Of a stretch of 64,000 nt of DNA, positions 16,449 through 47,398 are shown in pieces. The notes beneath the pieces are model-generated. The model was given only the letters and a program-made list of their open reading frames with translations. It searched no databases and was not told the origin of the DNA. Both the position numbers and the translations under genes were made by a program. Each line of letters opens with the position of its first letter. The first letter of the stretch is position 1. The stretch is taken from the IMG/VR virus record IMGVR_UViG_3300032323_002909, positions 62,001 through 126,000 of that record, one strand, 5' to 3'. Source of the DNA: a virus.

Positions 16449-17036
16449 TCATGGAGTTCGTCTAGCAGTTTTTTTAGCAGTTTTTCTAGCAGTTTTTCTA
16501 GCAGTTTTTTTGGCAGTTTTACTTGCGGCAGGTGTTGCGGTAGTAGCTGATCCATCAGCTGGTAGATAAATACCGCTATCATCATCAACATCATACATTC
16601 TTCTTCTATCTGGTCTTAAAACAAATTTAATTTGTTTTTCCACATCATCATATTGCACAATTGCTCTTGGCTCATTGAATCTTCTAATAATTATAGGTTC
16701 ACCATCATCATTAACCCCTTTTACACCAACATCTAACGCCCAGTGTGTTTTACCGCCGCCGAAATTTCTAATTTTTTTAGGTTTAGAGTTTTTGGTTGGA
16801 ATAAAACCCATTTCATCGATCCAATCAAGAATAATTTCTTCCGTTGTCTTACCCGCTTGTTTTATTGCACCGCTGGCAAGTTTAATATTTTTTCTAATAT
16901 TACTAACGTTTTGGTAGGTTTGAGGTAAAGCTACTTTGGTCAATTCTACAGCACCTTGTAATGCTTGTTTCCCAGTCTTCTTAAATGAATCCCAAAATCC
17001 TTCATCAAGTAATTCTTTTTGTGTGTGTTTATGCAT
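16449..17036 (-). CDS. Putative internal head protein with histone-H1-like basic tail
   Basis: This is a 195-residue protein. The first 12 residues (MHKHTQKELLDE) end in L-D-E before Gly, matching the T4-type prohead-protease cleavage rule. A central part follows with GGGKTHWALDVGVKGVNDDGEP and VRPD-like strands. The last 30 residues are almost only Lys, Arg, Thr and Ala, in repeats of (K/R)KTA after AAS, like the tail of bacterial histone-H1-like proteins. It should bind DNA and could help condense the packaged genome or coat it after entry. It is the last gene of a late operon with a DTG protease; the two reading frames overlap by 8 bases. Repeat-encoding DNA makes this tail prone to length change. 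Confidence 0.7.
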   Translation of the reverse strand: MHKHTQKELLDEGFWDSFKKTGKQALQGAVELTKVALPQTYQNVSNIRKNIKLASGAIKQAGKTTEEIILDWIDEMGFIPTKNSKPKKIRNFGGGKTHWALDVGVKGVNDDGEPIIIRRFNEPRAIVQYDDVEKQIKFVLRPDRRRMYDVDDDSGIYLPADGSATTATPAASKTAKKTARKTARKTAKKTARRTP

Positions 17037-17487
17037 TGGCTTGTAAATTTTGGTCTGCTACATTATTCAATGCTACATCGATAAGAGCATTGAGTTCATC
17101 TTTGATGAAACTTTTTCCTATTAAAACCTTATGATCGTTGGTGGCACGATTCCCAATTGAAAACGGAACACTGTTAAATTTTTTACCGCCGATCATACAA
17201 TCAAAAAGACACACAGGTCTTTCTACAGTATTACCTTCGCCGATATTTATGGTAATGGTATCTTCAACATCTTTTTCTAAACGAATAGAATTCACTGTTG
17301 TGAATCTTACTATTTTTTGGTGTGTGTTTTTATCTTCGCCCATTTCTAAATCTTCTCCATGTAAAACGTTATGCGCTCCATTACCTGTATCTAATTTAGC
17401 TGGAATATTACCGACACCATCGATGTTAATATCCTCGACTAATCCTAGAATATTTTTTTCAACGAAAAATTGTTTGAAACTTATCAT
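17029..17487 (-). CDS. Retropepsin-like aspartyl protease with putative capsid-targeting N-terminus
   Basis: This is a 152-residue protein. After a short leader, MISFKQFFVE (ending F-V-E, a variant of the prohead-protease rule), comes a domain that fits the small aspartyl proteases of the RimB/ATP-dependent zinc protease type (PF05618). GLVEDINIDGVGNIPAKLDTG carries the catalytic DTG (33-35), then RPVCLF, FSIGNR and VLIGKSF in the expected order. These proteins are retropepsin folds acting as dimers; one member processes poly-glutamate tails on ribosomal protein S6. As the product is likely packaged, it may act on a host or capsid protein. It overlaps the downstream gene by 8 bases and follows the acidic gene by 3. 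Confidence 0.7.
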   Translation of the reverse strand: MISFKQFFVEKNILGLVEDINIDGVGNIPAKLDTGNGAHNVLHGEDLEMGEDKNTHQKIVRFTTVNSIRLEKDVEDTITINIGEGNTVERPVCLFDCMIGGKKFNSVPFSIGNRATNDHKVLIGKSFIKDELNALIDVALNNVADQNLQANA

Positions 17488-17490
17488 CCA

Positions 17491-17946
17491 TTAACTAAGA
17501 GGGTTAAAATCGTCCGATTGTTCAAATCCAGTATTGGCAAAATCTGCTTTAGCATCTAAACGATGCCAAACATCCGACATGTATGTAGATGCTACTGTAA
17601 TTGCTGAGACCATCCAATCATCAAATTCGGTGTTGGAACATATGTCATAAAGTCTGTTAGAATATTCTGCTAACTTTTTCAATTCAGATACAAGAACTTC
17701 ATTAACTTCAAAATTATCCACTGACCCCATTGGCTCAACTTCCATTACAATATTTTGCATGGATTTAGATTCTGGTTCTAAATCATCATCGTATTCGGAT
17801 TCAAAATCATCATCGTCTTCAAAATCACCGCCAAGATCATCCATATCATCGTCTTCCAACATGTCATCGAGTCTTTCGTTCAAGACTTTTTTATTGCCAC
17901 GAAATGATTCCCAAATTAATGTGTTTTCTTCTCCTTTGAATTTCAT
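17491..17946 (-). CDS. Acidic internal or prohead-core protein candidate
   Basis: This is a 151-residue protein. The leader MKFKGEENTLIWE ends in I-W-E before Ser. Residues 25-62 are a run of Asp and Glu (DDMLEDDDMDDLGGDFEDDDD). The C-terminal half is helical, with a sequence like LKKLAEYSNRLYDICS. T4 prohead core proteins such as gp67 are similarly acidic and are cut to fragments, so a scaffold or core role is plausible. The late promoter just upstream lies in the stop region of the previous gene. Function is inferred from composition and context only. Confidence 0.65.
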   Translation of the reverse strand: MKFKGEENTLIWESFRGNKKVLNERLDDMLEDDDMDDLGGDFEDDDDFESEYDDDLEPESKSMQNIVMEVEPMGSVDNFEVNEVLVSELKKLAEYSNRLYDICSNTEFDDWMVSAITVASTYMSDVWHRLDAKADFANTGFEQSDDFNPLS

Positions 17947-17951
17947 ATTAT

Positions 17952-17957
17952 TATTTA
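17952..17957 (-). promoter_or_regulatory. Late promoter for the acidic/protease/histone-like genes
   Basis: TAAATA (17957-17952), then 5 nt to the ATG at 17946. The TAA of the box is the stop codon of the upstream gene. Confidence 0.7.
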
Positions 17958-18365
17958 GCTCATTTGATCAGAAATATCTCTAACTTCTTGTCCTTGTTGT
18001 TCGCGACGAATAATTGGAAGAATTTTATTTTGATATAAATCTTTAGCCGTTTCACCAGAACCTTGAATTCTATCAATAGCATCAGGCTTTTTAAGCAGGT
18101 CTAAAAGGTTTTCCAAAGCAATCCTATCATTACCCGTAGGTCTTGGTTCCATCAATGCGGCGAGAACCACGTCCTCGATATACCGAATTTCGCCCTGAGA
18201 ACTTAAGGGAATAGTATCTTGTTCTGGTTCTGGTGCATCTGCCGCCATGTCAGCTTCGGGATTGGCTTGCGAAGGATCATCTTGCTCAGGTGGCAACATA
18301 TCTTGCTCATCTTGTTCTACCAATCTCTGGTAATGATTCAATAATTGTAAAGTTTTAAATTTCAT
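17955..18365 (-). CDS. Putative internal head protein, Pro/Gln/Asp-rich middle
   Basis: This is a 136-residue protein. The leader MKFKTLQLLNHYQRLVE ends in L-V-E. Residues 20-56 are rich in Asp, Glu, Pro and Gln (QDMLPPEQDDPSQANPEAD), likely disordered. The rest is helical, with IEDVVLAALMEPRPTGND and ILPIIRREQQG. It lies in a late operon with three other proteins of the same leader type. There is no known domain. The start follows the upstream stop by 4 bases. It is probably a core or internal protein cut by the prohead protease. Confidence 0.6.
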   Translation of the reverse strand: MKFKTLQLLNHYQRLVEQDEQDMLPPEQDDPSQANPEADMAADAPEPEQDTIPLSSQGEIRYIEDVVLAALMEPRPTGNDRIALENLLDLLKKPDAIDRIQGSGETAKDLYQNKILPIIRREQQGQEVRDISDQMS

Positions 18366-18369
18366 ATGA

Positions 18370-18783
18370 TTATCGGGAAATCGTAGCTTTCAAATTTTGG
18401 CTTGCTTGGTCAATAGCTTTCGCCGCTTCGACGTTACGTTTTTTCATATATTCAGTGAGTTTAGGTACTATTTTCCTATCACCTTCCTCTTTAGCTTTTT
18501 TAAGAGCTCCTTTAGGTCTATTAGTTTTAGTCAGTTTAGCAATTGGTGACAATTGGTCATAACCATCAATAGTCTCACCCGCCAATTGATCAGGATTTAA
18601 TTTGTAAGGTTTGACTGCTTCTAAAGCAATTGCAGTATCATCGATATTCAATATGATTTTCTTACCATCGCTAGTGAATGGTATTTTTTTCTCATTCAGA
18701 AAAATTTTTACTTTCAACAAAGCATCAATTTTATCTATATTTGCAGGGTCATATTCTTCGAGGACATCTAAAAACTTACTCAT
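18370..18783 (-). CDS. Putative internal head protein, first of a late operon
   Basis: This is a 137-residue protein beginning MSKFLDVLEEYDPANIDKI; L-E-E before Tyr loosely fits the prohead-protease rule. A basic C-terminal part (NRPKGALKKAKEEGDRKIVPK) follows a beta segment. The ATG at 18783 is used because it lies 5 nt from the late TAAATA box; an ATG 15 bases further upstream would sit inside the box. It starts a run of five leftward genes (to 16449) that look like virion-internal proteins. Confidence 0.6.
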   Translation of the reverse strand: MSKFLDVLEEYDPANIDKIDALLKVKIFLNEKKIPFTSDGKKIILNIDDTAIALEAVKPYKLNPDQLAGETIDGYDQLSPIAKLTKTNRPKGALKKAKEEGDRKIVPKLTEYMKKRNVEAAKAIDQASQNLKATISR

Positions 18784-18788
18784 ATGAT

Positions 18789-18794
18789 TATTTA
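18789..18794 (-). promoter_or_regulatory. Late promoter of the internal-protein operon
   Basis: GATAAATA (TAAATA at 18794-18789), 5 nt before the ATG at 18783. Confidence 0.65.
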
Positions 18795-18797
18795 TCA

Positions 18798-20156: not shown

Positions 20157-20405
20157 TCAACCAATCGATCCGTCCCAAGTAGACAATTTTCTCCTTTTAC
20201 CAGATTTCTTACCAGTCTTTTTACCAGTTTTCAACCCACCTTTTCGAGTCGTGATACCAAGACCATATGGATTTTGCATATTTCCAGTTGCATATGAATC
20301 TTTATTTTCGATTCCTACTGCCGTGGGGATATCACCGTATACGCCACCCGCAGTCATCTCCTCATAAATTTTCACAATTTCAATTTCGTCACTTGACTTT
20401 CTCAT
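20157..20405 (-). CDS. Putative small internal head protein, basic C-terminus
   Basis: This is an 82-residue protein: MRKSSDEIEIVKIYEE at the N-terminus (a variant of the leader type, with I-Y-E), then a Gly-rich middle. The tail KTGKKTGKKSGKRRK would bind DNA. The start at 20405 is chosen because it is 5 nt from the late box. A second ATG at 20420 lies inside the promoter. It is a lone late gene whose promoter is antiparallel to that of uvsY. It is probably an internal DNA-associated protein; no known family. Confidence 0.6.
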   Translation of the reverse strand: MRKSSDEIEIVKIYEEMTAGGVYGDIPTAVGIENKDSYATGNMQNPYGLGITTRKGGLKTGKKTGKKSGKRRKLSTWDGSIG

Positions 20406-20827: not shown

Positions 20828-22233
20828 TAACATTGGATTACAAAACTTCTCGACGTATGGGTCAAGTTATTGCTGATAGTGATACTCTTGGTCTGATACG
20901 TAATCATTTTTCGGTTAAAAATGAAGGTGCAGTATTTGCCAAACGTAAGGGTCAGAGATTTGTAAAAGACAGGAAGTATGTAATAACACCAACTGGACTT
21001 TTTGATTTTGGTTTTTATGGTGAAATTATGAAATACCTTAGAGACCATCAGATAAGTGACATTCAAATGACAGATGACTTTAAAAAAAGATTAATCTGTG
21101 GAAAGAAAGTCCAATTTTGGGATGAACTTAAATACAATGCTCGATACTATCAAAAAGATTCTATTTTAGATGGTCTGAAAAGAGGGTATGGTATTTTTTT
21201 ACTCGCTACAGGTGCTGGAAAATCGTTAGCACAAGCACTCTTAATTGAAAATTACTTAAGAAATTTTGATCGTCCCAACTTTAAATGTTTGGTAATTGTG
21301 CCAGGTTTATCATTGGTGGAACAATTGCAAAAAGACTTTAAAGAATATGGTGTAACATTTACGTATTCTGGATGGACAGGCGACAACCCTTTGCAAGATA
21401 CACAAGTTGTTATTTGCAATACACAGAATTTAAATAGTAAATTTTTGGAAAATGATTGGTTGATCAATGTTGATCTTTTACTTACGGATGAAGCACACGG
21501 TGTTAATAGTGATTCCAATCTTTCTAAAATTATTAACAAAATTCATACCCCAAACAAATTTGGATTTACGGGTACTTTATCCGATAAACTGATAGATAAA
21601 TGGAAAACTATAGGTATATTTGGACCTGTTATTTATGAAAAATCCTCCAAGGAGTTAAGAGATGAGAAATTTTTATCAAATGTTGAGGTTAATGTTATTA
21701 AATTGATACACCAAACATCTTATAAATTTAAATATAAGCAAGAATTAGAATATTTGTATGAAAGCGAAAAACGTAATAACCTTATTGCCAAACTGGTTGA
21801 TAAACTGGATAATAACATCCTTATCATGGTTAATCATCTCGACCATGGTGATAACATACTATCTGTTCTATCTGATAGATTTTGTGGACGTGTATTTTTT
21901 GTCAAAGGTGAAATGGCGGTCGAAGAAAGACTAAAAATCATACAGATGATGGAAGATAGAAATGATATAATTTGTATCGCAATGTCTTCTATATTTTCTA
22001 CGGGTATCAACATTAAAAATCTCCCCAATATTTTATTTGTGGGACTTGGCAAAAGTTATATCAGAGTAGTGCAATCAATAGGTAGAGGTCTTCGATTGCA
22101 TGAAAATAAACATAAACTTAGAATTTTTGATGTTTGTGACAATACCAAATACTCAACATCTCATGCTGAATATCGTCAAAATATTTACAATGATGAAGAA
22201 ATCCAATGGAAAGAAAAGACAATTAATTTATGA
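20824..22233 (+). CDS. uvsW: UvsW-like DNA/RNA helicase
   Basis: This is a 469-residue SF2 helicase (T4 UvsW 502). The N-terminal domain is followed by the Walker A loop ATGAGKS near residue 136, LLTDEAHG for motif II, GFTGTL for motif III and the motif VI-like QSIGRGLRLHENK. UvsW unwinds R-loops and branched DNA. In T4 it shuts off origin-dependent replication and shifts it to recombination-dependent replication. It starts inside the uvsY stop and runs into gene 55 by ATGA overlap. It is early-transcribed with uvsY here. The family is secure. Confidence 0.88.
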   Translation: MITLDYKTSRRMGQVIADSDTLGLIRNHFSVKNEGAVFAKRKGQRFVKDRKYVITPTGLFDFGFYGEIMKYLRDHQISDIQMTDDFKKRLICGKKVQFWDELKYNARYYQKDSILDGLKRGYGIFLLATGAGKSLAQALLIENYLRNFDRPNFKCLVIVPGLSLVEQLQKDFKEYGVTFTYSGWTGDNPLQDTQVVICNTQNLNSKFLENDWLINVDLLLTDEAHGVNSDSNLSKIINKIHTPNKFGFTGTLSDKLIDKWKTIGIFGPVIYEKSSKELRDEKFLSNVEVNVIKLIHQTSYKFKYKQELEYLYESEKRNNLIAKLVDKLDNNILIMVNHLDHGDNILSVLSDRFCGRVFFVKGEMAVEERLKIIQMMEDRNDIICIAMSSIFSTGINIKNLPNILFVGLGKSYIRVVQSIGRGLRLHENKHKLRIFDVCDNTKYSTSHAEYRQNIYNDEEIQWKEKTINL

Positions 22234-22676
22234 ATAAAGAATTGAAAGAGCGTTATTATGTGAACTCCAAAGAGTTTCGAAGACTATTAACTGAGTATTA
22301 CGGTAATAATAAAATGACAAACGAATTAGCGATGAATATCGTCAAAATCGCTGAAGGTTTATCGTATAATCATCGTTTTATTAGATATTCTAAAAGTTGG
22401 AAAGAAGAAATGGTTGGTGATGCAATAGTTAAAATGTATCATGCTTTAGAGAAAAAGTTATATAATATCGAATCCGATTTCAACCCATTCTCATATTTTA
22501 ATAGAATAGCATGGAACGCATTCACTAATAGAATCAACAAAGAGAAAGGTCAGCATGAAGGTTTGAATGAATATAGGGACATAGTTTACATGGAAAACAT
22601 GTCTGGTCCCGATTCTATGGGTCATGTTTATGTCAAACCAGTAGTGGAGGGTGATGAATATGACGATGAATTTTGA
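22230..22676 (+). CDS. 55: Late sigma factor gp55
   Basis: This is a 148-residue protein. ERYYVNSKEFRRLLTEYY at the start and MVGDAIVKMYHALEKKLYN, then NPFSYFNRIAWNAFTNRI match the small T4 sigma factor gp55 (185 residues). gp55 directs host RNA polymerase to TATAAATA late promoters with gp33 and the gp45 clamp. The TAAATA boxes seen in this window are its expected targets. The gene's 3' end overlaps a small membrane-protein gene. No gp33 was clearly identified. Confidence 0.85.
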   Translation: MNKELKERYYVNSKEFRRLLTEYYGNNKMTNELAMNIVKIAEGLSYNHRFIRYSKSWKEEMVGDAIVKMYHALEKKLYNIESDFNPFSYFNRIAWNAFTNRINKEKGQHEGLNEYRDIVYMENMSGPDSMGHVYVKPVVEGDEYDDEF

Positions 22677-22821
22677 GCATATAGTAATTTCTATAGCAGC
22701 GGTATTGTATTTTACAGTTGGTGTGGTATACTGCCTCAAACAACAATGGGCATGGGGACTCACATGGTTCTGTTATGCGTTCGCCAATGTTGGTTTAATC
22801 TTAGCATCTAAGCACATTTAA
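22660..22821 (+). CDS. Small two-helix membrane protein
   Basis: This is a 53-residue protein that shares its first 17 bases with the end of gene 55. Two hydrophobic helices are visible: residues 8-24 (IVISIAAVLYFTVGVVY) and about 33-50 (a stretch with LTWFCYAFANVGLILA). A clear Shine-Dalgarno sequence (GGAGG at 22646-22650) precedes it, rare in this genome. A small membrane protein with the same WGLTW(F/L)CYA phrase is remembered in other T4-like phages. Its role is unknown; superinfection exclusion or lysis control are guesses. Confidence 0.7.
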   Translation: MTMNFEHIVISIAAVLYFTVGVVYCLKQQWAWGLTWFCYAFANVGLILASKHI

Positions 22822-22832
22822 TTGAATGTGCT
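22811..22832 (+). terminator. Hairpin after the membrane protein gene
   Basis: AGCACATT and AATGTGCT form an 8-bp stem with a 6-base loop that includes the gene's stop codon. There is no U-run, so it may be a weak terminator or an mRNA end structure. Confidence 0.45.
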
Positions 22833-22864
22833 AAAACAATAAAATGTAAATCTTCGCATAACAC

Positions 22865-23884
22865 ATGATAAAAAAAACAAATATTGCAATATTCTCAGAC
22901 CTTCATCTAGGACTGTATGGTAACTCCTCTGATTGGCACACGGTTGCACTTGATTGGGCAGACTGGATTGTATCCGATTTGAAAAAAAGAAAAATACAAG
23001 ATATATTTTTTCTTGGTGACTTTTTCCACAATCGAAGCGAAATCTCGGTTCAAACTATTCATGTTGCATCCGAATTAATTTTGAAATTTAAAGATTTCAA
23101 TATGTTTATGATTGTGGGCAATCACGATGCATATTACAAAAATCGTTCTGATGTGCATAGTTTAGGTTTTCTAAAAGGACATGACAACATCACAATCGTT
23201 GATCAAAATCTGACAGTCGATGCATTTGGTAAAAAATTATTGTTTGTTCCTTGGAATCACGAATTACCAGATGGTAAATTTGATTATATTTTTGGGCATT
23301 TTGAAATTCAAACATTTAAAATGAATAATTTCAAAGTATGTGATCACGGTTTGCAAGTTATAGATTTATTAGGTGCTAGAACCAATACTGTATTTTCGGG
23401 ACACTTTCATCTTAAAAGCACTAAGAAATATAATGAGGGTTGTATTCATTATGTAGGTAATACATTTCATCATGATTTCAATGATTCTGGTGATGCCAAA
23501 GGGTATCATGTTTTAAACTTAGAGTCTGGTGATTTAGAATTTGTCGAGAACACTATATCCCCACGGTTTGTCAAAATCTTATTATCTAAAATTAAAAATT
23601 GCAAAGCCGAAGATGTCAAAGGCAACATTGTCAAACTAATCATTGACAAAGATGTTGATGATGATAAAGTAAACAAATTCAAAATTTATCTAAGCAATTT
23701 TGCACCGTTTCGCCTAACTGTCGAATACAACGTGACGACGAAAACAATTGGTGATGTTGAACATATTGATTCTATCGATATTATTGGAATGTTTGATGAA
23801 TTTTACGAACAGCTATCACTCGATGCTGATAAATTAGAGAGAGTTAAAAAAATAAACGACGAACTATACGAAAAGTGTAAATGA
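22865..23884 (+). CDS. 47: Recombination nuclease subunit gp47 (Mre11/SbcD-like)
   Basis: This is a 339-residue protein, the same length as T4 gp47. The metallophosphoesterase motifs are in order: FSDLHLG (10-16), LGDFFHN, VGNHDAYY and GHFHL. With gp46 it forms the complex that resects DNA ends for recombination and host DNA breakdown. Its stop overlaps the gp46 start by 4 bases. A possible promoter (TTGAAT, 17 nt, TGTAAA) sits upstream of its ATG. The identity is secure. Confidence 0.92.
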   Translation: MIKKTNIAIFSDLHLGLYGNSSDWHTVALDWADWIVSDLKKRKIQDIFFLGDFFHNRSEISVQTIHVASELILKFKDFNMFMIVGNHDAYYKNRSDVHSLGFLKGHDNITIVDQNLTVDAFGKKLLFVPWNHELPDGKFDYIFGHFEIQTFKMNNFKVCDHGLQVIDLLGARTNTVFSGHFHLKSTKKYNEGCIHYVGNTFHHDFNDSGDAKGYHVLNLESGDLEFVENTISPRFVKILLSKIKNCKAEDVKGNIVKLIIDKDVDDDKVNKFKIYLSNFAPFRLTVEYNVTTKTIGDVEHIDSIDIIGMFDEFYEQLSLDADKLERVKKINDELYEKCK

Positions 23885-25668
23885 AAAGTATTAATTTTAA
23901 AACATTAAAAGGTCAGAATTTCCTCAGTATCGGTAACGATCAAATTAATATTGATTTCCAATCAGGATTTAATCTGATTACTGGTAAAAATATCGATAAT
24001 CCTGATAGAGTTAACGGTATTGGAAAATCTAGTATAGCTGAATTGTTTTACTATGCTCTGTTTGGCAAAACAATCCGTGAATTAAAAAAAGAATTTATTA
24101 TTAATAATGTCACTAAAGGTAAAGGTGCTATAGAACTCACGTTTGATGTAAAAACTGAAAACGATGTTCAATCATATACTATAAAACGTCAGGTAAAACC
24201 TAGTTCAGTGACCTTGCTACAAGGTGACGTAGACATTACAAAAGATTCTATCACCAACACTGATAAGTTCATATGTGATTTAATAGACTCTAATGCTATC
24301 ATTTCCCGTAGTTGCGATATATTATCACTATCCGATAACATTCCTTTCATGGCTAAAAAACCAGAGGAGAAGAGAAAATTTATCAATGATATTTTCTCTC
24401 TGGAAATCTTTGGTAAAATGAGTAATGAACTTAAAAATCTTATACGAGACAATAAGAATGATACCAATGTTTCTAGTGCCAAATTGGAGGAAATCAACAA
24501 TACATTGGATACTCTAAATGATCAACAAGCAGATTATGAGAAAAAATTAGCTGAAAGAGAACAACTTCTTGAACAAAAAAGAAATGATATTACTGATAAA
24601 ATTAAAGATATCACGAAATCTATTTCTGCTATAGAAATTTTAGATGTTTCTGAGATATCAATCGAACAAGACAAATATCACGAAGCATGGGTAAAATTAG
24701 ATGGTAAAATTGGACAAGTTAATCACGAGTTATCCACTAAAGAGACGTTACGCCGTTTAAAAATCAATCAAATAAATTCTGTATCATCTGTCGATACTAC
24801 TGTTCAATGTGACAAGTGTTTACAGGATGTGCCTCATACACATATTGATCATTTGGAAAAACTTAAAGCTCAATATATCGAAGAACGAGATGCTATAGAT
24901 AAAGAAATTGAACGGTTGAATAATGAGAAGCAACAATATCATGATAAAAAGAGACGTATTCAAAATAAAGTCGCCGAATTGCAAGAACAAATCAATACTT
25001 CTAAGTTGAATCGTCAAAAATTGGAAGCTTTTCAAAGACAAATAGAACAATATCAAGAGTCATTGGATAATTTAAAATTGGAAGAATTACCTAAGCCAAA
25101 TTTTGAAGAAAGTATTAATAATACTGAAAAACGTAAACTGGTAGAGAGTGAAAATCTTAAATTATTGAAGCAAAAAGCTCAGGATTATGATGTTTGTAAA
25201 TTTGTTCTTAGTGAAGAAGGTGTGAGAAGTTTTGTCGTTAAGCGTTTATTATCGATGATGAACGCTAGTATTCAACAATATATAAATGATTTGGGTATGA
25301 GCATTCGTTGTAAATTCAATGAATACTTCGATGAACAATTGTCAAACGATAAAGGAATCGAGATATCATATTGGAATCTAAGTGGTGGTGAAAGACGAAC
25401 TGTCGATCTGGCATGTGCTTGGGCATTCAAAGATTTGAAGCGTAAAATTTCTGGTGTAACATCAAATGTTGAATTTTTTGATGAATATCTCGACTCAACA
25501 CTCGATTCTACTGGTATAGATAAATTAATCGAGCAAATTAAGTGTCGAATCGACAAATATAACTTGTCAGTATATGTCATATCACACCGTGTGGAGACTA
25601 ACAAACACGTCACAGGAGAAGTGGTCGAATTAATTAAAGAAAATGGTATAACCAAACGAGTATCTTGA
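23881..25668 (+). CDS. 46: Recombination nuclease subunit gp46 (Rad50/SbcC-like)
   Basis: This is a 595-residue ABC/SMC ATPase. The N-terminal Walker A loop NGIGKSSIAELF lies near residue 45. A long coiled coil surrounds a CDKC zinc-hook motif. The C-terminal LSGGERRTVDLACAWAF signature, with FFDEYLDSTLD as Walker B, completes the ABC domain. It pairs with gp47 for end resection. The end carries no further domain and stops 12 bases before an independent glycosyltransferase transcript. Length and motif order match T4 gp46 (560 residues). Confidence 0.92.
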   Translation: MKSINFKTLKGQNFLSIGNDQINIDFQSGFNLITGKNIDNPDRVNGIGKSSIAELFYYALFGKTIRELKKEFIINNVTKGKGAIELTFDVKTENDVQSYTIKRQVKPSSVTLLQGDVDITKDSITNTDKFICDLIDSNAIISRSCDILSLSDNIPFMAKKPEEKRKFINDIFSLEIFGKMSNELKNLIRDNKNDTNVSSAKLEEINNTLDTLNDQQADYEKKLAEREQLLEQKRNDITDKIKDITKSISAIEILDVSEISIEQDKYHEAWVKLDGKIGQVNHELSTKETLRRLKINQINSVSSVDTTVQCDKCLQDVPHTHIDHLEKLKAQYIEERDAIDKEIERLNNEKQQYHDKKRRIQNKVAELQEQINTSKLNRQKLEAFQRQIEQYQESLDNLKLEELPKPNFEESINNTEKRKLVESENLKLLKQKAQDYDVCKFVLSEEGVRSFVVKRLLSMMNASIQQYINDLGMSIRCKFNEYFDEQLSNDKGIEISYWNLSGGERRTVDLACAWAFKDLKRKISGVTSNVEFFDEYLDSTLDSTGIDKLIEQIKCRIDKYNLSVYVISHRVETNKHVTGEVVELIKENGITKRVS

Positions 25669-25692
25669 CAAAATAGATTGTGGAAATAGATA
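25665..25692 (+). promoter_or_regulatory. Early promoter for the inserted glycosyltransferase
   Basis: TTGACA (25665-25670), overlapping the gp46 stop, 16 nt, TAGATA (25687-25692), then 5 nt to the ATG at 25698. Start of transcription would be at the start codon. Confidence 0.65.
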
Positions 25693-25697
25693 ATATC

Positions 25698-26903
25698 ATG
25701 TTTCCACAATCTCCCTTTGCTGCATCTCCGTTTGTATCGCCCTTTCCTCAAAATATAATGATAGGTAAACCACCTGTTGAAAAAATTGAGAAACGCCATT
25801 CTTATTTAAATTTTTTAGCTGATCGACAAGGATGTGGACAATGGCGAATTGGGTGGGCAGAGAACCATATTAATATGTCAAATATGGGTGAATCAACATC
25901 CGTGACGAAAATGATTTTTGATAAAGGTTGGTATCGTGACATCACAACCGTTAAATTACAACGTCAAGCATCGACAATGCAAAAAGAATTTTTTCAATTT
26001 CTTAAAAGCATCCAAGAAGAAATGGGTTTCAAAATAATCTACGAAGTTGACGATGTTGTTTTTTATGAAGAAATTCCCGATTATAATATCTTCAAAGAAT
26101 CATTTGCTAATGACGAGATAAGACAAAATTGCGTGGATATGGTTAGAATGGCTGATGAGGTCACTGTTACATGCAAATATATGCGAGACCTGTTTATCGA
26201 GAAAACAGGACAGTTTAACATTTCAGCGGTTCCGAATTTCCCACCTGAGTGGTGGATAGGTCATCAATATGATTATAATCAGATTATTCATAATCATACT
26301 AAGCATAAAAATCGTCCAAGAATTTTGTATTCTGGTTCAGGTGCTCATTTTGATGTTAAAAATAATACAAATCAACAAGATGATTTTTCCCATGTGTTGA
26401 AATTTATAATAGATAATCGATACAAATATCAATTTATTTTCATTGGTTCTTACCCACCACCATTACATAAATATATTGAAAATAAAGAAATTGAATTTTA
26501 TCAGTGGCAAACTTTAATGAATTACCCTAAATTTATTTCATCTTTGAATGTTCAAATGTTATTAGCACCTTTAATGGATATACCATTCAACAGATCAAAA
26601 TCTGATATCAAATATATTGAAGGAGCATGTCTCGGTATTCCTTGTATGTGTCAAGACATGGTAACATATCAAGATACTCCAGATTTCCTTAAATTTAAGG
26701 ATTTTGAAGACTTGGCAATAAAGACTGAATATCTTTTAAATTGGAAGAATGATAAAAAATATTATCAACTTGTGAAACAATTAAGAAAATTAGGAGAAAC
26801 TAGATTTTTAGAAAGACCTGAAAATATAGGAGCTTTTATTGAAGCAATGAATACACCATTTGGCGACCCTAGTAGAAAATATTTGAGACCTTGGAATGAT
26901 TAA
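25698..26903 (+). CDS. GT4-like glycosyltransferase (GT-B), free-standing in the replication region
   Basis: This is a 401-residue GT-B protein. Signatures are YEVDDVVFYEEIPDY (a motif of sugar transferases that use Asp-Asp), VTCKYMRDLF, a Rossmann strand RPRILYSGSGAHF, and the donor-site DIKYIEGACLGIPCM, where E-x-x-x-x-G-x-P is the usual GT4 site. It is far from the main sugar island, between gp46 and unrelated late genes, with its own early promoter. The product is probably a stand-alone early modifier of a glycan or of DNA. The start at 25698 is chosen over the GTG at 25680, which lies inside the promoter. Confidence 0.75.
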   Translation: MFPQSPFAASPFVSPFPQNIMIGKPPVEKIEKRHSYLNFLADRQGCGQWRIGWAENHINMSNMGESTSVTKMIFDKGWYRDITTVKLQRQASTMQKEFFQFLKSIQEEMGFKIIYEVDDVVFYEEIPDYNIFKESFANDEIRQNCVDMVRMADEVTVTCKYMRDLFIEKTGQFNISAVPNFPPEWWIGHQYDYNQIIHNHTKHKNRPRILYSGSGAHFDVKNNTNQQDDFSHVLKFIIDNRYKYQFIFIGSYPPPLHKYIENKEIEFYQWQTLMNYPKFISSLNVQMLLAPLMDIPFNRSKSDIKYIEGACLGIPCMCQDMVTYQDTPDFLKFKDFEDLAIKTEYLLNWKNDKKYYQLVKQLRKLGETRFLERPENIGAFIEAMNTPFGDPSRKYLRPWND

Positions 26904-27190
26904 TCTTTAGTATCTCTAGTGAACTCGGAATATTGAGCTAGAGTTGGTCGAAGGCGTTCAAACATAGCTTTTAAATTGTCATACGGTGTCTTATTCGAAG
27001 GATTATTGAAAAATCTCTCTCTGTTGTTTTGATAATAAGCTATTGTCCCTTTTAAATATGTTTCAATAGCTGCTGAAATTTTATGCATTTCAGCTATCAT
27101 CCCTTCGGTCAAAGCGTCATAATTATCATATGATGATTGAAAATCTAAACTTTCATAAATCTTGCTCAAGTCTTCAAAATACTTATCCAT
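26900..27190 (-). CDS. Putative internal head protein, small, lone late gene
   Basis: This is a 96-residue protein: MDKYFEDLSKIYESLDF, with I-Y-E before Ser fitting the leader rule. The rest is helical (AEMHKISAAIETYLKGTIAYY) and ends RDTKD. It is transcribed leftward against its neighbours; the end overlaps the glycosyltransferase end by 4 bases. The late box 5 nt from the ATG, and a mirror late promoter serving the next gene rightward, make a divergent pair. Function unknown; grouped with the packaged proteins by leader and promoter. Confidence 0.6.
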   Translation of the reverse strand: MDKYFEDLSKIYESLDFQSSYDNYDALTEGMIAEMHKISAAIETYLKGTIAYYQNNRERFFNNPSNKTPYDNLKAMFERLRPTLAQYSEFTRDTKD

Positions 27191-27258: not shown

Positions 27259-27903
27259 ATGAGAAGTAGCGATTATTTTTTAGAAATTTCAAATATTTAT
27301 TCGAGGATCATAAATGAATCCCCTGATAATATTACAATTATTGACGATAATGGTGATCATAAAAATATATCGTATTATAACACACCAGATGCCTACACTG
27401 GTCTTATCGGTAGTGATGGTGAATATGTCTTGTCGAAAGATATTATAGGTCATAGTAATTTAATCGATCATATTTTACATCATGGAGAAGATATTATTCA
27501 AAAGTTAATAACCAATCTTGATGATATATATGATTTGCAAAGATTGGTTAGAGAAAGAATAAAAATAAGAATTTGGAAAAATCAAAAAGTTTTTAGTATG
27601 TGGGATTATTACAAGCCTTCATACGAAACTGCCATCAAAAATTCCTTAAAAGCTATAGGTCAAAATTATAAACAATATAGATATGATAATGAATACAAAG
27701 ATTATAATGACATGCCTTTATACGATACTTTTTTCGTAAATAGTTTAACGGATGAACAAAAAGAAGAGAACACGATGGCAGCAATGAAAAAAATTGAAGC
27801 AGAAAGAGCTTTAATGGATAAAATAGCTGGCGCTAGACAAAGACCATCGAATGGTGAAACGCCTTACAGAAAACCTTCTTGGATGAATAGAGAAGGGGAT
27901 TAA
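27259..27903 (+). CDS. Putative internal head protein of unknown function
   Basis: This is a 214-residue protein. The leader MRSSDYFLEISNIYSRIINE ends in I-N-E before Ser, the clearest fit to the protease rule. The remainder has a beta-like start (ITIIDDNGDHKNISYYN) and helical middle (DIIQKLITNLDDIYDLQRLV). It ends in a charged segment with YRKPSWMNREGD. No family was recognised. It is a monocistronic late gene inserted among replication genes, as the other leader proteins are. Confidence 0.6.
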   Translation: MRSSDYFLEISNIYSRIINESPDNITIIDDNGDHKNISYYNTPDAYTGLIGSDGEYVLSKDIIGHSNLIDHILHHGEDIIQKLITNLDDIYDLQRLVRERIKIRIWKNQKVFSMWDYYKPSYETAIKNSLKAIGQNYKQYRYDNEYKDYNDMPLYDTFFVNSLTDEQKEENTMAAMKKIEAERALMDKIAGARQRPSNGETPYRKPSWMNREGD

Positions 27904-27950
27904 TATTAGCAATCTTTGTGTTTATAGCTTGCTATTTGAAATAAGGGTGA

Positions 27951-27956
27951 TAAATA
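27951..27956 (+). promoter_or_regulatory. Late promoter of the 93-residue gene
   Basis: GATAAATA (TAAATA at 27951-27956), 6 nt before the ATG at 27963. Confidence 0.65.
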
Positions 27957-27962
27957 AACAAC

Positions 27963-28244
27963 ATGTCTAATAATATCCAAAACAACGATAAGCACATCCA
28001 CGGTGATGTGCAAGCCACTAATGTAACAGAAGCGACTACGCCGTTGGATGATGCGTCTTGTTGTGCTTCGGATTTTCAAGCTAGAAAGGATGCTGTATGC
28101 CGAGAATTGGTCGAACATCTAAGAAACATTCCGAGACAACAACCAGTAGGTGAAGAAATCCAAACCGTCTGGACACCATTTGTGGAGAAATTCAAAGAAA
28201 TAGGGAAACGATTCGATGAATCATTCAGAGGAATCTCCCAATGA
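27963..28244 (+). CDS. Hypothetical protein with a duplicated N-terminal coding segment
   Basis: This is a 93-residue protein. The N-terminal part NNDKHIHGDVQATNVTEAT is encoded by an 82-base segment that recurs 459 bases downstream. The C-terminal part is helical and charged (RKDAVCRELVEHLRN). It has no leader of the packaged type. Its end overlaps by 24 bases the end of a small leftward gene. The role is not clear; a beta-like or disordered N-terminus and a helical tail are all that can be said. Confidence 0.6.
   Translation: MSNNIQNNDKHIHGDVQATNVTEATTPLDDASCCASDFQARKDAVCRELVEHLRNIPRQQPVGEEIQTVWTPFVEKFKEIGKRFDESFRGISQ
27982..28063 (+). repeat. 82-base direct repeat, copy 1 (inside the 93-residue gene)
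   Basis: Bases 27982-28063 match 28441-28522 with about six differences by direct comparison, both 82 bases long. In this copy the frame reads NDKHIHGDVQATNVTEAT and continues as protein. Confidence 0.9.
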
Positions 28245-28376
28245 CATCGACAATTCCAATATAATTTCTTCAATTTTTTGTTTGATCTTCTCCTTAATAT
28301 GATCAGGAACTTCCGCACTATTCAACTTTTCGGTTAAAGTATCGATTTGTTTGATTGTTCTTTCGTAATTTGCCAT
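28221..28376 (-). CDS. Small helical protein, leftward, lone gene
   Basis: A 51-residue frame, MANYERTIKQIDTLTEKL and onward, with the charge pattern of an amphipathic helix ending LSMSLGDSSE. It lies between two rightward genes and overlaps the first by 24 bases at the ends. A CAAATAA-like box precedes the ATG by about 7 bases, weaker than other late boxes. It could be chance, but the residue composition looks like protein. Confidence 0.45.
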   Translation of the reverse strand: MANYERTIKQIDTLTEKLNSAEVPDHIKEKIKQKIEEIILELSMSLGDSSE

Positions 28377-28440
28377 ACGCTTGTTATTTGCGCTCGCGAT
28401 GATAAATCATAACGGAGGAGTGTCTAGGGGATTATTTGGC

Positions 28441-28522
28441 ACAACGATAAGCACATCCACGGTGATGTGCAAGACCCAAATGTGACAGAAGCGACTACAC
28501 CGTTGGATGATGCGGCTTGTTG
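28441..28522 (+). repeat. 82-base direct repeat, copy 2 (before the polymerase gene)
   Basis: Its last three bases supply the TTG of the TTGACA -35 box of the polymerase promoter. In the original copy the following bases read TGC instead of ACA. Confidence 0.9.
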
Positions 28523-28547
28523 ACATTCATGATGTTTGTGTTATACT
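28520..28547 (+). promoter_or_regulatory. Early promoter of the DNA polymerase gene
   Basis: TTGACA (28520-28525), 16 nt, TATACT (28542-28547), then 6 nt to the ATG at 28554. It is the best match to sigma-70 in the window. Confidence 0.75.
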
Positions 28548-28553
28548 CGATCC

Positions 28554-36580: not shown

Positions 36581-37300
36581 ATGATTTCGTTCGCAAAACA
36601 CTATTTGATCAAAGAAGCTTTTGATACTGTGACAGAATTTTTATTGAATCCTGAACACTCGGATAAAGAGTATGATGAACTAGTCGCGGAGTTTGAAGCT
36701 TCTGGTGGTGAAGTTTTGGGTTCTGGATCATTTGGTATTGTATATTCACACCCAAGTTGGCCCTATGTGCTCAAAGTGTTTAGTTGGGATGACCCATATC
36801 TAAAATTTGCAAGATACGCATACGACAACCCACATCCATCTTTTCCAAAATTTTATGGTAAACCACAACGTGTTGTCCCTAATTATACGAGATATAAAGA
36901 TGAAGCAAAGCAATATCTGGCAAGGATTGAACGTTTGGAACCAACTTCAGAAAATGTTTTGAATAAAATAAATGTGGAACTTATGTTATACTTTCATCTA
37001 AGGGACAATCCAGAATTGATAAAAAATCGAGTAGATTTTATGAAATTGTCTAGCAGAGTCAAAGCATTACCCAAAGAAATTTATAATCTATTAGATGGAT
37101 TATATTTGATACGTAGAGATCTCCCCACATTGAACCCTGATTTACATGAAGATAATGTTATGATGCGAGATGATGGTCAATATGTGTGGATCGATCCTGT
37201 TTGGACTGGCGATGAAGCTAGTGAAAACCCACTGACCGCTGCTATGACATCTAAGGACTACGCTCCCGAAAACATGTTACGTGGTGGAAGAACATCTTGA
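36581..37300 (+). CDS. Protein-kinase-fold protein with putative capsid-targeting leader
   Basis: This is a 239-residue protein. The leader MISFAKHYLIKE has I-K-E before Ala. Then come kinase features. A glycine loop LGSGSFGIVYS (46-56) is followed by VLKVF with the Lys at 65. NPDLHEDN (175-182) matches the catalytic loop, with Asp177 and Asn182. IDP (194-196) stands where DFG would be, with Asp195 kept. All key residues of a kinase are present, so it may be active on a protein or small molecule. It is smaller than eukaryotic kinases, like phage or KdoK-type ones. It is a single late gene and, with the leader, is likely packaged and injected. Confidence 0.75.
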   Translation: MISFAKHYLIKEAFDTVTEFLLNPEHSDKEYDELVAEFEASGGEVLGSGSFGIVYSHPSWPYVLKVFSWDDPYLKFARYAYDNPHPSFPKFYGKPQRVVPNYTRYKDEAKQYLARIERLEPTSENVLNKINVELMLYFHLRDNPELIKNRVDFMKLSSRVKALPKEIYNLLDGLYLIRRDLPTLNPDLHEDNVMMRDDGQYVWIDPVWTGDEASENPLTAAMTSKDYAPENMLRGGRTS

Positions 37301-39318: not shown

Positions 39319-39825
39319 ATGAATAAAAAAGATCAGGATAACATTGGGCTGATATATGAAAACATTTTATTAGAAGCTAGTTTATCCAATAAAAATCTTT
39401 TTTATGGCTTAAAAAGCATGTTGGATGATGGCGAAGATTTCACAATGTTGACGGATAGAAACATGGAAAAAGATGATCAACAAACTATGTCCTGTCAGTT
39501 TATATATAAAGGAACTAGACATATTAGAGTTTTCACGAGCGCGTTTTTTTCGACTAAAAACTATGATAATCCTTCTCATCTCACAGTTTCTATATTTGAG
39601 GTGACACCAGAAGGTAAAACCATATCTAAGTTGGATACTAATGCTTTCTATAACAAAGGGGCATATTTCGACATCTCACACGATCCGATAATATCTTCTG
39701 TCGAGAATTTTGTCAAATATGTCAAGTCGGTGTTGGACAGGTCTGATAGAGATCGTGGAAACGATGATGAAACGAAGCTTCCTAAATCACCAACCCCAAC
39801 GAGTAAAAAATTAATATCGATTTGA
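39319..39825 (+). CDS. Putative internal head protein of unknown function
   Basis: This is a 168-residue protein. The leader MNKKDQDNIGLIYENILLEA has L-L-E before Ala, a textbook match. The remaining domain looks alpha/beta, with SCQFIYKGTRHIRVFTS and LTVSIFEVTPEGKTI, and a disordered tail (LPKSPTPTSKK). No family was found. It is a single late gene between gp41 and DHH. An AT-rich hairpin follows at the stop. Confidence 0.65.
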   Translation: MNKKDQDNIGLIYENILLEASLSNKNLFYGLKSMLDDGEDFTMLTDRNMEKDDQQTMSCQFIYKGTRHIRVFTSAFFSTKNYDNPSHLTVSIFEVTPEGKTISKLDTNAFYNKGAYFDISHDPIISSVENFVKYVKSVLDRSDRDRGNDDETKLPKSPTPTSKKLISI

Positions 39826-43805: not shown

Positions 43806-44060
43806 ATGGCTGCTATAAACGAAATTACAGGAAAAGTTATCAGAACCAATCCCCAAAACTCCAAATATGCCGAAAATTGGGATAAAATTTTTACTAAAAA
43901 ATCTTCCAATGAATGGCTAAAAGAATGTGCAGATGTTGTATTATTAGATCCTGATGGGTGGCGACAGAATGATGGTGTTGATATGGATACTCCCATCAAA
44001 TGGGCAGATTTTCAATATAGGTTATCTTTATCGACTATAATGTGTAAAAATATTAAATAA
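43806..44060 (+). CDS. Conserved small phage protein
   Basis: This is an 84-residue protein. The C-terminal phrase ADVVLLDPDGWRQNDGVDMD, then TPIKWADFQYRL is highly patterned and I recall it from many phages, but no function is known. It begins 2 bases after gp45. A late box for the next gene overlaps its end. Confidence 0.65.
   Translation: MAAINEITGKVIRTNPQNSKYAENWDKIFTKKSSNEWLKECADVVLLDPDGWRQNDGVDMDTPIKWADFQYRLSLSTIMCKNIK
44054..44059 (+). promoter_or_regulatory. Late promoter of the GNAT-like gene
   Basis: ATTAAATA (TAAATA at 44054-44059) includes the end of the upstream gene and lies 8 nt before the ATG at 44068. Confidence 0.6.
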
Positions 44061-44067: not shown

Positions 44068-44712
44068 ATGAAATTAACACAAAAAGATCAGTCCGAGATA
44101 GCAAATTTATATTCCGAAATTTTAGTAGAAGCATTTTCAGATCTTGGGAAATTATCACCTGAGCAATTACGTAAAGGTTATCGTTTAAACCCGAATGATT
44201 CGGATAACTTTAAAGAAGTCAGTGGGCGAGTGTTTCATAACGCTTTGGAAGTTATCAAAAATAACGACGATATGCGCAAAGTTACAAATCCCGACTACTA
44301 TAAAGCTATCAGACAAAATCTTTCAACATATCCCATCGCTGAATATAATTCGATGAGATGTTTTCTAGGTAAGAATAATTCCAGTGGTTTCTGCATCAAA
44401 GACGACGATGAATTGGTTTCTTTGTTTTCTTCTTTAGAATCTTCTGGTAAAGCAGCTGCCCTAGCAGCTATTGAAAATGGTGCAAAACGACTTGATTGTT
44501 TCGCAACTCAAGATCAAAACGGTAACATTAAAAACGAAGGTTTATATAAACTTTACTCGTCTGTCGGGTTTGTTATTGACGAATCGTTGACTACTGGCGA
44601 ACTAGGTGAGCCGTATGCAATACAAAATGGTATATCATATTTTGTCGGTCCAGATGAAGTAGTAGACCCAACCCACCCAACAGTGGTGATTTTCATGAAA
44701 TTATCAAGATGA
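44068..44712 (+). CDS. GNAT-like acyltransferase with putative capsid-targeting leader
   Basis: This is a 214-residue protein. The leader MKLTQKDQSEIANLYSEILV continues to L-V-E before Ala. The later SGFCIKDDDELVSLFSS, then AAIENGAKRLDCFATQD and GLYKLYSSVGFVID (158-171) follow the order of GNAT acyltransferases: a beta strand, a binding loop, then the Y-x-x-x-G-F motif. The acetyl-CoA loop is weak, so the fold is more certain than activity. It has its own late promoter. If packaged, it may modify host targets right after entry. It overlaps the next gene by 4 bases. Confidence 0.65.
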   Translation: MKLTQKDQSEIANLYSEILVEAFSDLGKLSPEQLRKGYRLNPNDSDNFKEVSGRVFHNALEVIKNNDDMRKVTNPDYYKAIRQNLSTYPIAEYNSMRCFLGKNNSSGFCIKDDDELVSLFSSLESSGKAAALAAIENGAKRLDCFATQDQNGNIKNEGLYKLYSSVGFVIDESLTTGELGEPYAIQNGISYFVGPDEVVDPTHPTVVIFMKLSR

Positions 44713-45004: not shown

Positions 45005-45032
45005 TTGAATATTGTCAATACCGTAATAAGTA
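45005..45032 (+). promoter_or_regulatory. Early promoter before the primase cluster
   Basis: TTGAAT (45005-45010), 16 nt, TAAGTA (45027-45032), then 8 nt to the ATG at 45041. Same -10 as phoH. Confidence 0.5.
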
Positions 45033-45040
45033 TATCATAT

Positions 45041-45370: not shown

Positions 45371-45374
45371 TAAT

Positions 45375-45686: not shown

Positions 45687-45960
45687 TTTTTTAGATAAAA
45701 TGAAAAAAGGCAGCGTTTATGCTGTCCAAGTTGGTGATTATGTGGGGCAGTTCTTCAATTATATTAAGAAGGACAGTAATAATTATTTTTTCTTATCTAC
45801 TCCAAATGTGGAGATAATAAAAGTTCCAAAAGAAAAATTTGACTTCGCATTGAATAATGGTATTATCGAATACGTTGAAACTCTCCCAAGAAATATCTTC
45901 AAAGTTATCAAAGCACAGTACCAACAATTATCAGAAAAAAATGGTAAAAATACCTTCTGA
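45676..45960 (+). CDS. Hypothetical protein, alternative start possible
   Basis: This is a 94-residue protein, with a possible second start at 45700 (MKKGSVYAVQVGDYVGQFF) that gives 86 residues. The longer frame begins inside the upstream gene. The segment KKGSVYAVQVGDYVGQFF is beta-rich, like a small barrel. Its end overlaps primase by 20 bases. Function unknown. Confidence 0.5.
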   Translation: MIFNFLDKMKKGSVYAVQVGDYVGQFFNYIKKDSNNYFFLSTPNVEIIKVPKEKFDFALNNGIIEYVETLPRNIFKVIKAQYQQLSEKNGKNTF

Positions 45961-46969
45961 TTATGTGGTATCTAAGTTTTATGAGTATGGTTATAAAGTA
46001 ACTCATAACACCTACAGCGGAACTTACCAATGTTGTTGCCCCATTTGCAAAGAGGGTAAAAGTTGGGGATTCAAGAAAAGATGTTTCTACATACCCGAAA
46101 ATGAATTGATTTACTGCCATAATTGTGGTTGGTCATCCAAACCATATAAATGGATAAAGGAAGTTTCTGGATTATCATACGATGATATCGTGTCAGAAAT
46201 AAATAATGGCGACTTTGGCGTTATTGATGTTTTAGAATTACCTGAAACCAACAACATTACACCATCTAGAGTATTACCAACCTTACCCACTGATAGCATC
46301 AATCTTTTTGATAAAGCGCAAACTGATTATTATAAAAATAATAAAATTGTGCAGGATGCTTTAAATTATATCAAGGCTAGACGACTGAATAATGCTGTTA
46401 ATAAACCAGATGCCTTTTATTTATCATTAAAAGATGACGTTCATCGTAAGCGACTCATCATACCTTTTAAAAACACTGATGGTAAGATTATTTTTTACCA
46501 GTCTAGAAAACTAATAGATGATGAGTCGCCGACATACTTATCAAAAGACGGTGGTGACAAGTCATTATTCGGTATCGAGAGGATAAACCCTGATTTAGAT
46601 ACAATATTCATTACTGAAGGACCATTAGATGCGTGTTTTGTCAAAAACGGCATAGGATTGGGTGGTATTAGTAAGAAAAATCATTTATTTACACATGATC
46701 AACAATCTCAAATGGATGGTTTGAAATTCTTCAATCATATTTGGGTATTAGATAGCCAATGGGTGGATGAAACCGCTAGAGAGAAGACACTACAATTGAT
46801 ACAAATGGGTGAAACTGTCTTTATATGGCCCGAATATGATGGTCGTAAATTTAAAGATTTGAATGAGATGTGTGTCGCTTACGATACAGACGAATACCCG
46901 ACAGATCTTATAATAAAAAATAGCCACAAGGGACTTGCGGCTATTGTGAAAATGAAGTTGATTAAATAA
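45941..46969 (+). CDS. 61: DNA primase gp61
   Basis: This is a 342-residue primase, the same length as T4 gp61. A zinc finger CCCPIC with a later CHNCGW lies at residues 25-65, and the TOPRIM strand is FITEGPLDACFVKN. It primes lagging-strand synthesis with gp41. The ATG at 45941 begins MVKIPSDYVVSKFYE. The ATG 84 bases upstream is inside the previous gene and adds residues unlike the family. A hairpin is embedded near its end. Confidence 0.88.
   Translation: MVKIPSDYVVSKFYEYGYKVTHNTYSGTYQCCCPICKEGKSWGFKKRCFYIPENELIYCHNCGWSSKPYKWIKEVSGLSYDDIVSEINNGDFGVIDVLELPETNNITPSRVLPTLPTDSINLFDKAQTDYYKNNKIVQDALNYIKARRLNNAVNKPDAFYLSLKDDVHRKRLIIPFKNTDGKIIFYQSRKLIDDESPTYLSKDGGDKSLFGIERINPDLDTIFITEGPLDACFVKNGIGLGGISKKNHLFTHDQQSQMDGLKFFNHIWVLDSQWVDETAREKTLQLIQMGETVFIWPEYDGRKFKDLNEMCVAYDTDEYPTDLIIKNSHKGLAAIVKMKLIK
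46919..46945 (+). terminator. Hairpin within the end of the primase gene
   Basis: AATAGCC/GGCTATT enclose CAAG/CTTG with one mismatch and a 3-base loop. It is 25 bases before the stop, with no U-run. It may slow or end transcription where two gene runs converge. Confidence 0.4.
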
Positions 46970-46975
46970 TCAAAT

Positions 46976-47398
46976 TTATTTGGTGTTTTTGCTAGGACTG
47001 AATAACTCGGCTAATCCTGCCAAATCAGCCGCAATCTTTGCGATTTTGTCTTGATGTTTTTTAAGATTTGCAAGATTCGAGTTGGGATTAGCATTTTGTA
47101 GAGTTTTTTGAATACTCGTAGATTGCTCACCATTAATATATTTGGTGAATTTATTGATGTTGGTAATCCACTTGTCTAAAAGATTACTCATTTGTTCATT
47201 CTGACGAGCCATTGGATCATCTGTATTATTAATAGCATTTGGATCGGGTTCCATATCGACATCATAATCATCGATCCCCACATCATCGATACCATCCATA
47301 GAAGATTCGGCAGCATCTCTCTCCATAGTAGGATCGAAATCTAATTCAGGTGCTTCTTTGAGTAATTTAAGAAATTTTGATTTGAATTTGTTCGTCAT
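46976..47398 (-). CDS. Putative internal head protein, acidic N-terminal half
   Basis: This is a 140-residue protein. The leader MTNKFKSKFLKLLKE has L-K-E before Ala. Then comes an acidic stretch (MDGIDDVGIDDYDVDMEPDP) and helices (SNLLDKWITNINKFTKYING). This resembles T4 internal core proteins. The ATG at 47398 is 5 nt from the late box; an earlier ATG at 47413 lies inside the box. It is a lone gene, divergent from the next late gene. Confidence 0.62.
   Translation of the reverse strand: MTNKFKSKFLKLLKEAPELDFDPTMERDAAESSMDGIDDVGIDDYDVDMEPDPNAINNTDDPMARQNEQMSNLLDKWITNINKFTKYINGEQSTSIQKTLQNANPNSNLANLKKHQDKIAKIAADLAGLAELFSPSKNTK

Follow-up and report, generated by a model that had tools for sequence, protein, structure and literature searches.

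Predicted T4-type capsid-targeting leaders on a diverse set of candidate cargo proteins in an uncultivated T4-like virus

In bacteriophage T4 the first 10 residues of the internal protein IPIII suffice to package foreign proteins (PMC9026906), and a conserved tag on diverse internal proteins is established for the T-even phages (PMC3012670). Here we analyzed a 64,000-nucleotide stretch, the window, corresponding to bases 62001-126000 of the 150,461-base virus record IMGVR_UViG_3300032323_002909, in which a first-pass annotation had listed 14 proteins beginning with what it took for a T4-type capsid-targeting leader. Like T4 IPI, IPII, IPIII and Alt (PMC9026906, PMC3012670), these proteins combine a short leader ending in hydrophobic-x-E, late promoters and diverse mature parts with an S77 protease in the same record. 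Unlike in T4, where a handful of such genes is known, about 25 leader genes are found here, an additional longer leader form occurs, the cargo includes a gp0.7-like kinase, a CCA-adding-type nucleotidyltransferase and retropepsin-like and GNAT-like proteins, and the predicted cut site of the major capsid protein lies at residue 57. The arrangement also resembles that of the ejection proteins of SPN3US and phiKZ, in which many head-protein propeptides are removed by a gp21-related prohead protease (PMC10052503), as is predicted here; those propeptides, however, are mostly of 111-254 residues (two of 20-24) and are cut after A-x-E, whereas the present leaders have 9-22 residues and end in (I/L/F)-x-E. 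ADP-ribosyltransferases (ARTs) and Nudix enzymes have been widely proposed, from gene context, to be packaged in heads and injected, as have polyvalent effectors (PMC9503650). Unlike that work, which relied on MuF or portal fusions and gene neighbourhood, ours proceeds from a putatively cuttable leader on stand-alone genes. In the literature searched, capsid targeting and cyanophages were mentioned together only in a T4 review. What is new in this uncultivated clade is the size and kind of the cargo, a longer leader form that is interchangeable, leader exchange located at the predicted cut, and an association with late promoters.

The start codons and leaders listed in the first-pass annotation are all present in the sequence, and in 13 of the 14 proteins (all ten that it had called clear and three of the four looser ones, 17487, 18783 and 20405) a leader of 9-21 residues ends in hydrophobic-x-E, in some with F or V replacing L/I. 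Two apparently interchangeable forms can be discerned: a T4 form of 10-12 residues, M-x-x-F/Y-x-x-F/Y-hydrophobic-x-E, and a long form of 15-22 residues, ..L/I-Y-x-x-hydrophobic-hydrophobic-x-E. The leaders are given below in window positions, which are used throughout unless labelled "record"; genes are named by their start, the slash marks the predicted cut, and the late box is given by its distance in nucleotides upstream of the ATG.

17001-17036, minus strand: leader MHKHTQKELLDE/G of gene 16449-17036; E/G site retained in five relatives
17458-17487, minus strand: T4-form leader MISFKQFFVE/K of gene 17029-17487; relatives have MRSFKQFFVE, MTNFKQFFVE and MRSYKEFFYE
17908-17946, minus strand: leader MKFKGEENTLIWE/S of acidic protein 17491-17946 (isoelectric point 4.1); IWE or LWE in five relatives
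17952-17957, minus strand: late promoter box TAAATA, 11 nucleotides upstream of the ATG at 17946
18315-18365, minus strand: leader MKFKTLQLLNHYQRLVE/Q of acidic protein 17955-18365 (isoelectric point 4.1); relatives retain hydrophobic-x-E/Q
18757-18783, minus strand: leader MSKFLDVLE/E of protein 18370-18783; late box at 11; found in relatives
20361-20405, minus strand: leader MRKSSDEIEIVKIYE/E of 82-residue protein 20157-20405 with Lys-rich tail; late box at 11, upstream sequence TAAATACTATT
27152-27190, minus strand: leader MDKYFEDLSKIYE/S of gene 26900-27190; late box at 11; one relative has MDNYFKDLSMIYE/N
27259-27318, plus strand: leader MRSSDYFLEISNIYSRIINE/S of gene 27259-27903; long pattern; late box at 13
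31105-31470, plus strand: LFE/K candidate of the first-pass annotation, not upheld as a member
36481-36534, minus strand: leader MRIYDLDYLTERVQLINE/D of 672-residue protein 34516-36534; late box at 11
36581-36616, plus strand: leader MISFAKHYLIKE/A of the T7 gp0.7-like kinase gene; late box at 13; 13 loci
39319-39375, plus strand: leader MNKKDQDNIGLIYENILLE/A of gene 39319-39825; late box at 11; a relative has MNNYFKELGLIYENILLE/A
44054-44059, plus strand: late promoter box TAAATA, 14 nucleotides upstream of the ATG at 44068
44068-44130, plus strand: long-form leader MKLTQKDQSEIANLYSEILVE/A of the 44068 protein; four relatives carry a 10-residue T4-form leader instead
47354-47398, minus strand: leader MTNKFKSKFLKLLKE/A of acidic protein 46976-47398 (isoelectric point 4.3); site in five relatives; late box at 11

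The mature product of gene 16449-17036 is basic (isoelectric point 10.0), with a Lys/Arg/Ala/Thr tail. For 18783 the leader itself stood, but the cut first placed at LEE10/Y did not, as VLE9/E fits better; its orthologues in five relatives have ILE or LIE at residue 9. Counterparts of 20405 read ..LNE/DMTAGGVYGG, ..LVE/MDVAG and ..LME/MMTAGG, and in orthologues of 36534 ADIFTE/M and AELLTE/M occupy the same alignment column as the leader site. No orthologue of 27259 was found, and it is the weakest of the upheld members. The candidate at 31105 was rejected, having neither a late box nor an orthologue that carries a leader.

The most direct evidence for what would be a cuttable tag comes from leader exchange. 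The 44068 protein of this record reads MKLTQKDQSEIANLYSEILVE/AFSDLGKLSPEQL, and its orthologues read MKTFYQFFWE/AFSDIGKLSPEQL, MKTFYQFFWE/AFSDIGKISPEIL, MRPFYDFYLE/KFSDLGKLSPEQL and MQSFYKFFWE/AFSDIGKLSPEQL. Clear homology in this family begins at the predicted cut (AFSDLGKLSP in the record, AFSDIGKLSP in a relative), with a long leader in one virus and a T4-form leader in the others. The tRNA nucleotidyltransferase encoded outside the window behaves comparably: at most of 20 viral loci it has a leader-like N-terminus of widely differing sequence, against 61-93% identity across the enzyme; a few loci have it joined to an upstream reading frame. The leader of the kinase is conserved at 13 of 13 loci, with a late box at each. 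The exchangeable leaders of the 44068 orthologues and the variable ones of the nucleotidyltransferase bear out the suggestion that the leader behaves as a swappable address tag.

Absence of a gp21-type protease had been set beforehand as an observation that would speak against such a tag. We looked for this protease and found it in the record, outside the window (S77 family, E-values 3.5e-29 and 5.7e-28), as well as in 12 of 12 relatives searched and in Alishewanella phage Slickus01, a cultivated myovirus of 141,644 bp (PMC10507051). Among 77 capsid proteins, the region of the expected gp23 cut reads (I/L/F)-x-E57/(A/S), residue 55 being I/L/F in 69, residue 57 E in 59 and residue 58 A/S in 58. 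The protease of the record begins MLKLKLIAE/N, which resembles the LIE-9 site of T4 gp21 (PMC9026906). Judged by the position of the capsid site and of the site at the protease N-terminus, leaders and shell would be cut with the same specificity. As a separate observation, in relative G006 (a contig of L018) S77 matched twice within one 596-residue frame at 16423-18018 (profile positions 19-93, then 15-197), as if a partial copy had been fused ahead of a full one.

The late box TAAATA lies exactly 11 nucleotides before the ATG in 32 genes and at 12 nucleotides in nine more, against a background of 0.3 per position further upstream. This arrangement extends over the whole record (for example, at 17952-17957 and 47404-47409 of the window) and recurs in relatives G001-G005, G007 and G011. 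T4's exact TATAAATA was rejected as the late box here, and TAAATAAT at 11 nucleotides upstream served as the working box. In agreement with the claim that most of the listed genes have a late promoter, TAAATA was found 11-14 nucleotides before the ATG in 10 of the 14, and 17036, 17487 and 18365 share a gene run behind 18783 and 17946, which carry the box. Late promoters played no part in leader selection, and the box precedes 10 of the 11 strong-pattern leader genes of the record vs. 36 of 146 others (P = 1.9e-5); it precedes none of ten PHROGs-assigned genes, nearly all of which serve replication or recombination. The leader genes therefore appear to belong to the class that includes virion genes. 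Pooling the relatives weakened the link, which was still present. Hardly any genes have a Shine-Dalgarno core (7%, control 3.6%); with a transcription start placed as in T4, the AUG would form the very 5' end of late mRNAs, making them leaderless.

The motif by itself proves little, because it is only modestly above chance: of the 148 proteins of the record, 43 have a bare (L/I)xE whose Glu falls at residues 8-23, vs. about 16% (12-20%) of internal windows, and about 46 of 205 T4 genes (22%) satisfy a loose hydrophobic-x-E rule, for which reason that rule was dropped as evidence. We also discarded a position-wise conservation table of hand-picked leaders, which is circular at P1 and P3, and a leader matrix from free expectation-maximization, which locked onto the start Met. 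In its place we used a matrix with P1 fixed as Glu, trained solely on proteins of the relatives without homologues in the record; it returned 17 N-termini at a score of at least 2 vs. 4.3 expected. A 10-residue pattern derived from T4 (aromatic 4, hydrophobic 7 and 8, Glu 10), based on mutational work summarized in PMC9026906, matched 26 N-termini over nine records vs. 1.07 expected from internal windows. Because some of these matches are mutual orthologues and at least one, a clamp-loader-like N-terminus, is a false positive, the formal P of 5e-27 overstates their independence. Within this record the IPIII-type 10-mer is matched by 17487 and the nucleotidyltransferase, most remaining window leaders being longer. 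Gene calls on the rest of the record and on eight relatives came from a simple purpose-written caller, so start codons are somewhat error-prone.

Applied to T4, the same pattern returned ipII, ipIII and the hypothetical gene 61.1. The 54-residue product of the latter (NC_000866 18966-19130) reads MKTFKEFIKE/DMVAGDSGG..KKKKEESKEKEE, with a T4-type targeting leader, and resembles the 82-residue window protein 20157-20405 (IYE/EMTAGGVYG.., Lys-rich tail) and its relatives. Gene 61.1 possibly encodes an unrecognized T4 internal head protein.

Slickus01 extends these observations to a cultivated phage. Nine of its consecutive genes start MKIDxLYESLLEE or close variants; five of the nine have an ART-like domain, and another matches phrog_4301 and looks kinase-like by eye. 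The long pattern found 12 N-termini in Slickus01 vs. 0.22 expected, among them MKEDLKQLFESVVLNE, just downstream of the S77 protease at the position of the scaffold gene. An ART-like homologue in a Rhizobium phage lacks a leader of this type, and the record of that phage yielded no S77 match; this single negative control fits a pairing of leader and protease.

Leaders, a protease gene, late promoters and leader exchange at the joint are directly legible in the DNA, and from them we infer targeting, cleavage, ejection and effector action. Leader proteins made late would bind the prohead scaffold core through the leader; the S77 protease would then release the mature protein within the head by cutting behind the Glu of (I/L/F)-x-E; and at the next infection many mature proteins would be ejected with the DNA and act ahead of phage gene expression. 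We regard it as likely that an enlarged cargo set here carries T4-type capsid-targeting sequences, that these leaders are cut by the protease and that many of the mature proteins are ejected in this way. Of its parts, the tag very probably sends proteins into the virus head, and some tagged proteins probably enter the next bacterium together with the DNA. The targeting function proposed in the first-pass annotation gains support from the leaders, the S77 protease of the record, the late-class promoters and leader exchange. Several points weigh on the other side: packaging and cleavage are predictions in all these phages, the bare motif hardly exceeds background, some cargo is large (672-735 residues) to pass the portal, and five of eight relatives show no significant association between strong-pattern genes and the late box. 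Also, the long pattern was composed after viewing the leaders of this record, so that its counts here are partly circular and Slickus01 is the fairer test. That the matches were merely picked from a motif common near N-termini, as the flagging of about 22% of T4 genes might suggest and as 31105 illustrates, is nevertheless refuted for the set as a whole by the 26 matches vs. 1.07, the late-promoter link and leader exchange, and we hold it to be extremely improbable; individual members, 27259 above all, are less secure. The leaders, amphipathic and helical by eye, might instead be uncut helices that dock the proteins to another phage or host partner, given that cleavage is a prediction. This is very unlikely, since Glu and the hydrophobic P3 stay while the remaining leader changes, the joints between differing leaders and the same cargo fall at Glu, and the capsid protein has the same site.

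A more serious alternative, though we still consider it unlikely, is that the leaders are real and cut but that all of the proteins are structural components of the head core or interior (gp67/gp68/IPIII-like), with a role in assembly and not as delivered effectors. Scaffold proteins likewise have hydrophobic-x-E sites near their N-termini, and counterparts of 17036, 17487, 17946, 18365, 18783, 20405, 36534 and 47398 exist in several relatives, several of them strongly acidic or basic. Because they are conserved and strongly charged, 17036, 17946, 18365 and 47398 look like core or internal head proteins, and about half of the window members are probably of this kind. Against extending this to all members, no role in assembly is known for the kinase, the nucleotidyltransferase and the retropepsin-like cargo, all of them enzymes, and 36581 (the kinase), 44068 (GNAT-like), 27190, 27259 and 39319 are patchily distributed; these five fit effectors better than head proteins. 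The packaged effector set that the first-pass annotation had envisaged thus probably applies to patchy enzymes but not to every member, several being conserved charged proteins. Under the reading we prefer, capsid targeting with delivery of many mature proteins, the probable effectors are the kinase, the GNAT-like protein, the CCA-adding-type nucleotidyltransferase and the ART-like protein.

The mature cargo and the leader candidates beyond the window are as follows.

36617-37300, plus strand: mature kinase-like cargo with GSGSFGIVY loop, LKVF Lys, NPDLHEDN and IDP
44131-44712, plus strand: mature 44068 cargo, weakly GNAT-like (PF12746, E-value 1.8e-4, below the Pfam cut-off)
record starts 21809 (ART-like), 23020, 25110 (nucleotidyltransferase), 26625 and 27783: leader candidates outside the window
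record starts 32323, 143751, 144611 and 145432: further leader candidates outside the window

The first-pass annotation underestimated the set, which is about twice as large and reaches beyond the window: of some 25 leader genes in the record about half lie outside it, individual members being uncertain. T7 gp0.7 acts on the host early in T7 infection. The kinase matches phrog_15752 (E-value 5.2e-8 over residues 30-82), and its motifs are invariant in relatives except for HEDN/HGDN and IDP/VDP. The 44068 cargo matches phrog_2563, a family of unknown function (E-value 6.6e-10), and a viral-contig scan with this protein returned an identical copy only. Structure predictions for the kinase (six close sequences) and 44068 (single sequence) reached a predicted local distance difference test score of 41, too poor, and 36, respectively, and were not used for fold searches. 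The product of 17029-17487 is retropepsin-like (PF05618, E-value 2.4e-6); no protein of the phage collection matched it. The tRNA nucleotidyltransferase (record 25110-26624; PolyA_pol, E-value 5.7e-23; phrog_2244, E-value 6.6e-60; CCA-adding type) would be suited to repairing tRNA ends, over which hosts and phages are known to be in conflict (PMC9503650). In relative G002, a 968-residue late gene (record 46369-49275) with leader MRRFHGLYKKLMATLSE joins a CCA-adding/PolyA_pol head to HD and NUDIX. In the ART-like proteins (record 21809-22960 and the Slickus01 array), H-x-T, S..R and E-x-E-(D/E)-R are invariant over 10 sequences; no Pfam or PDB match was obtained, a PDB profile search matching only outside the domain, and a viral-contig scan gave no match. 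Leader proteins of 533 and 597 residues (record 23020-24621 and 27783-29576, outside the window) are PcfJ-like by eye (EGGAMGHCGN..GDTVLSLR), with no Pfam or PHROGs match; the former has a distant homologue in Salicola phage SCTP-2.

The record is T4-like, with a gp23 capsid protein match (E-value 1.4e-82) outside the window. Capsid relatives among isolates are all below 60% identity, the closest being uncultivated viral contigs; those from bacterial genome contigs reach no more than 48% identity and come from unrelated metagenome-assembled genomes, which point to no host. A DNA search of the phage collection gave no near match. Elsewhere in the record, three adjacent small open reading frames (record 4193-4840, outside the window) consist of repeated DSV(W/E)xSV-like units, and a gene run at 1943-14463 of the window resembles, by eye, glycosyltransferases and sugar-modifying enzymes (GGLGNQIF, GGVANQIF near 1943-3456), a possible surface-glycan island.

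Proteins carried in the head and delivered at time zero are mostly unknown outside T4 and a few giant phages. We see an even chance that an exchangeable, self-removing tag loads some 20 or more enzymes clade-wide and beyond in the style of a secretion signal (the kinase, nucleotidyltransferase with or without Nudix, ART-like arrays, the GNAT-like protein and peptidases) to act ahead of all phage gene expression, such that the tag alone predicts injected effectors in environmental phages at large. A tag readable in sequence and backed by leader exchange at the cut would allow candidate injected effectors to be listed in uncultivated T4-like viruses, where most are now "hypothetical protein". 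Judging by its members, the cargo may act early on host signalling (kinase, ART-like) and repair tRNA to counter host defences.

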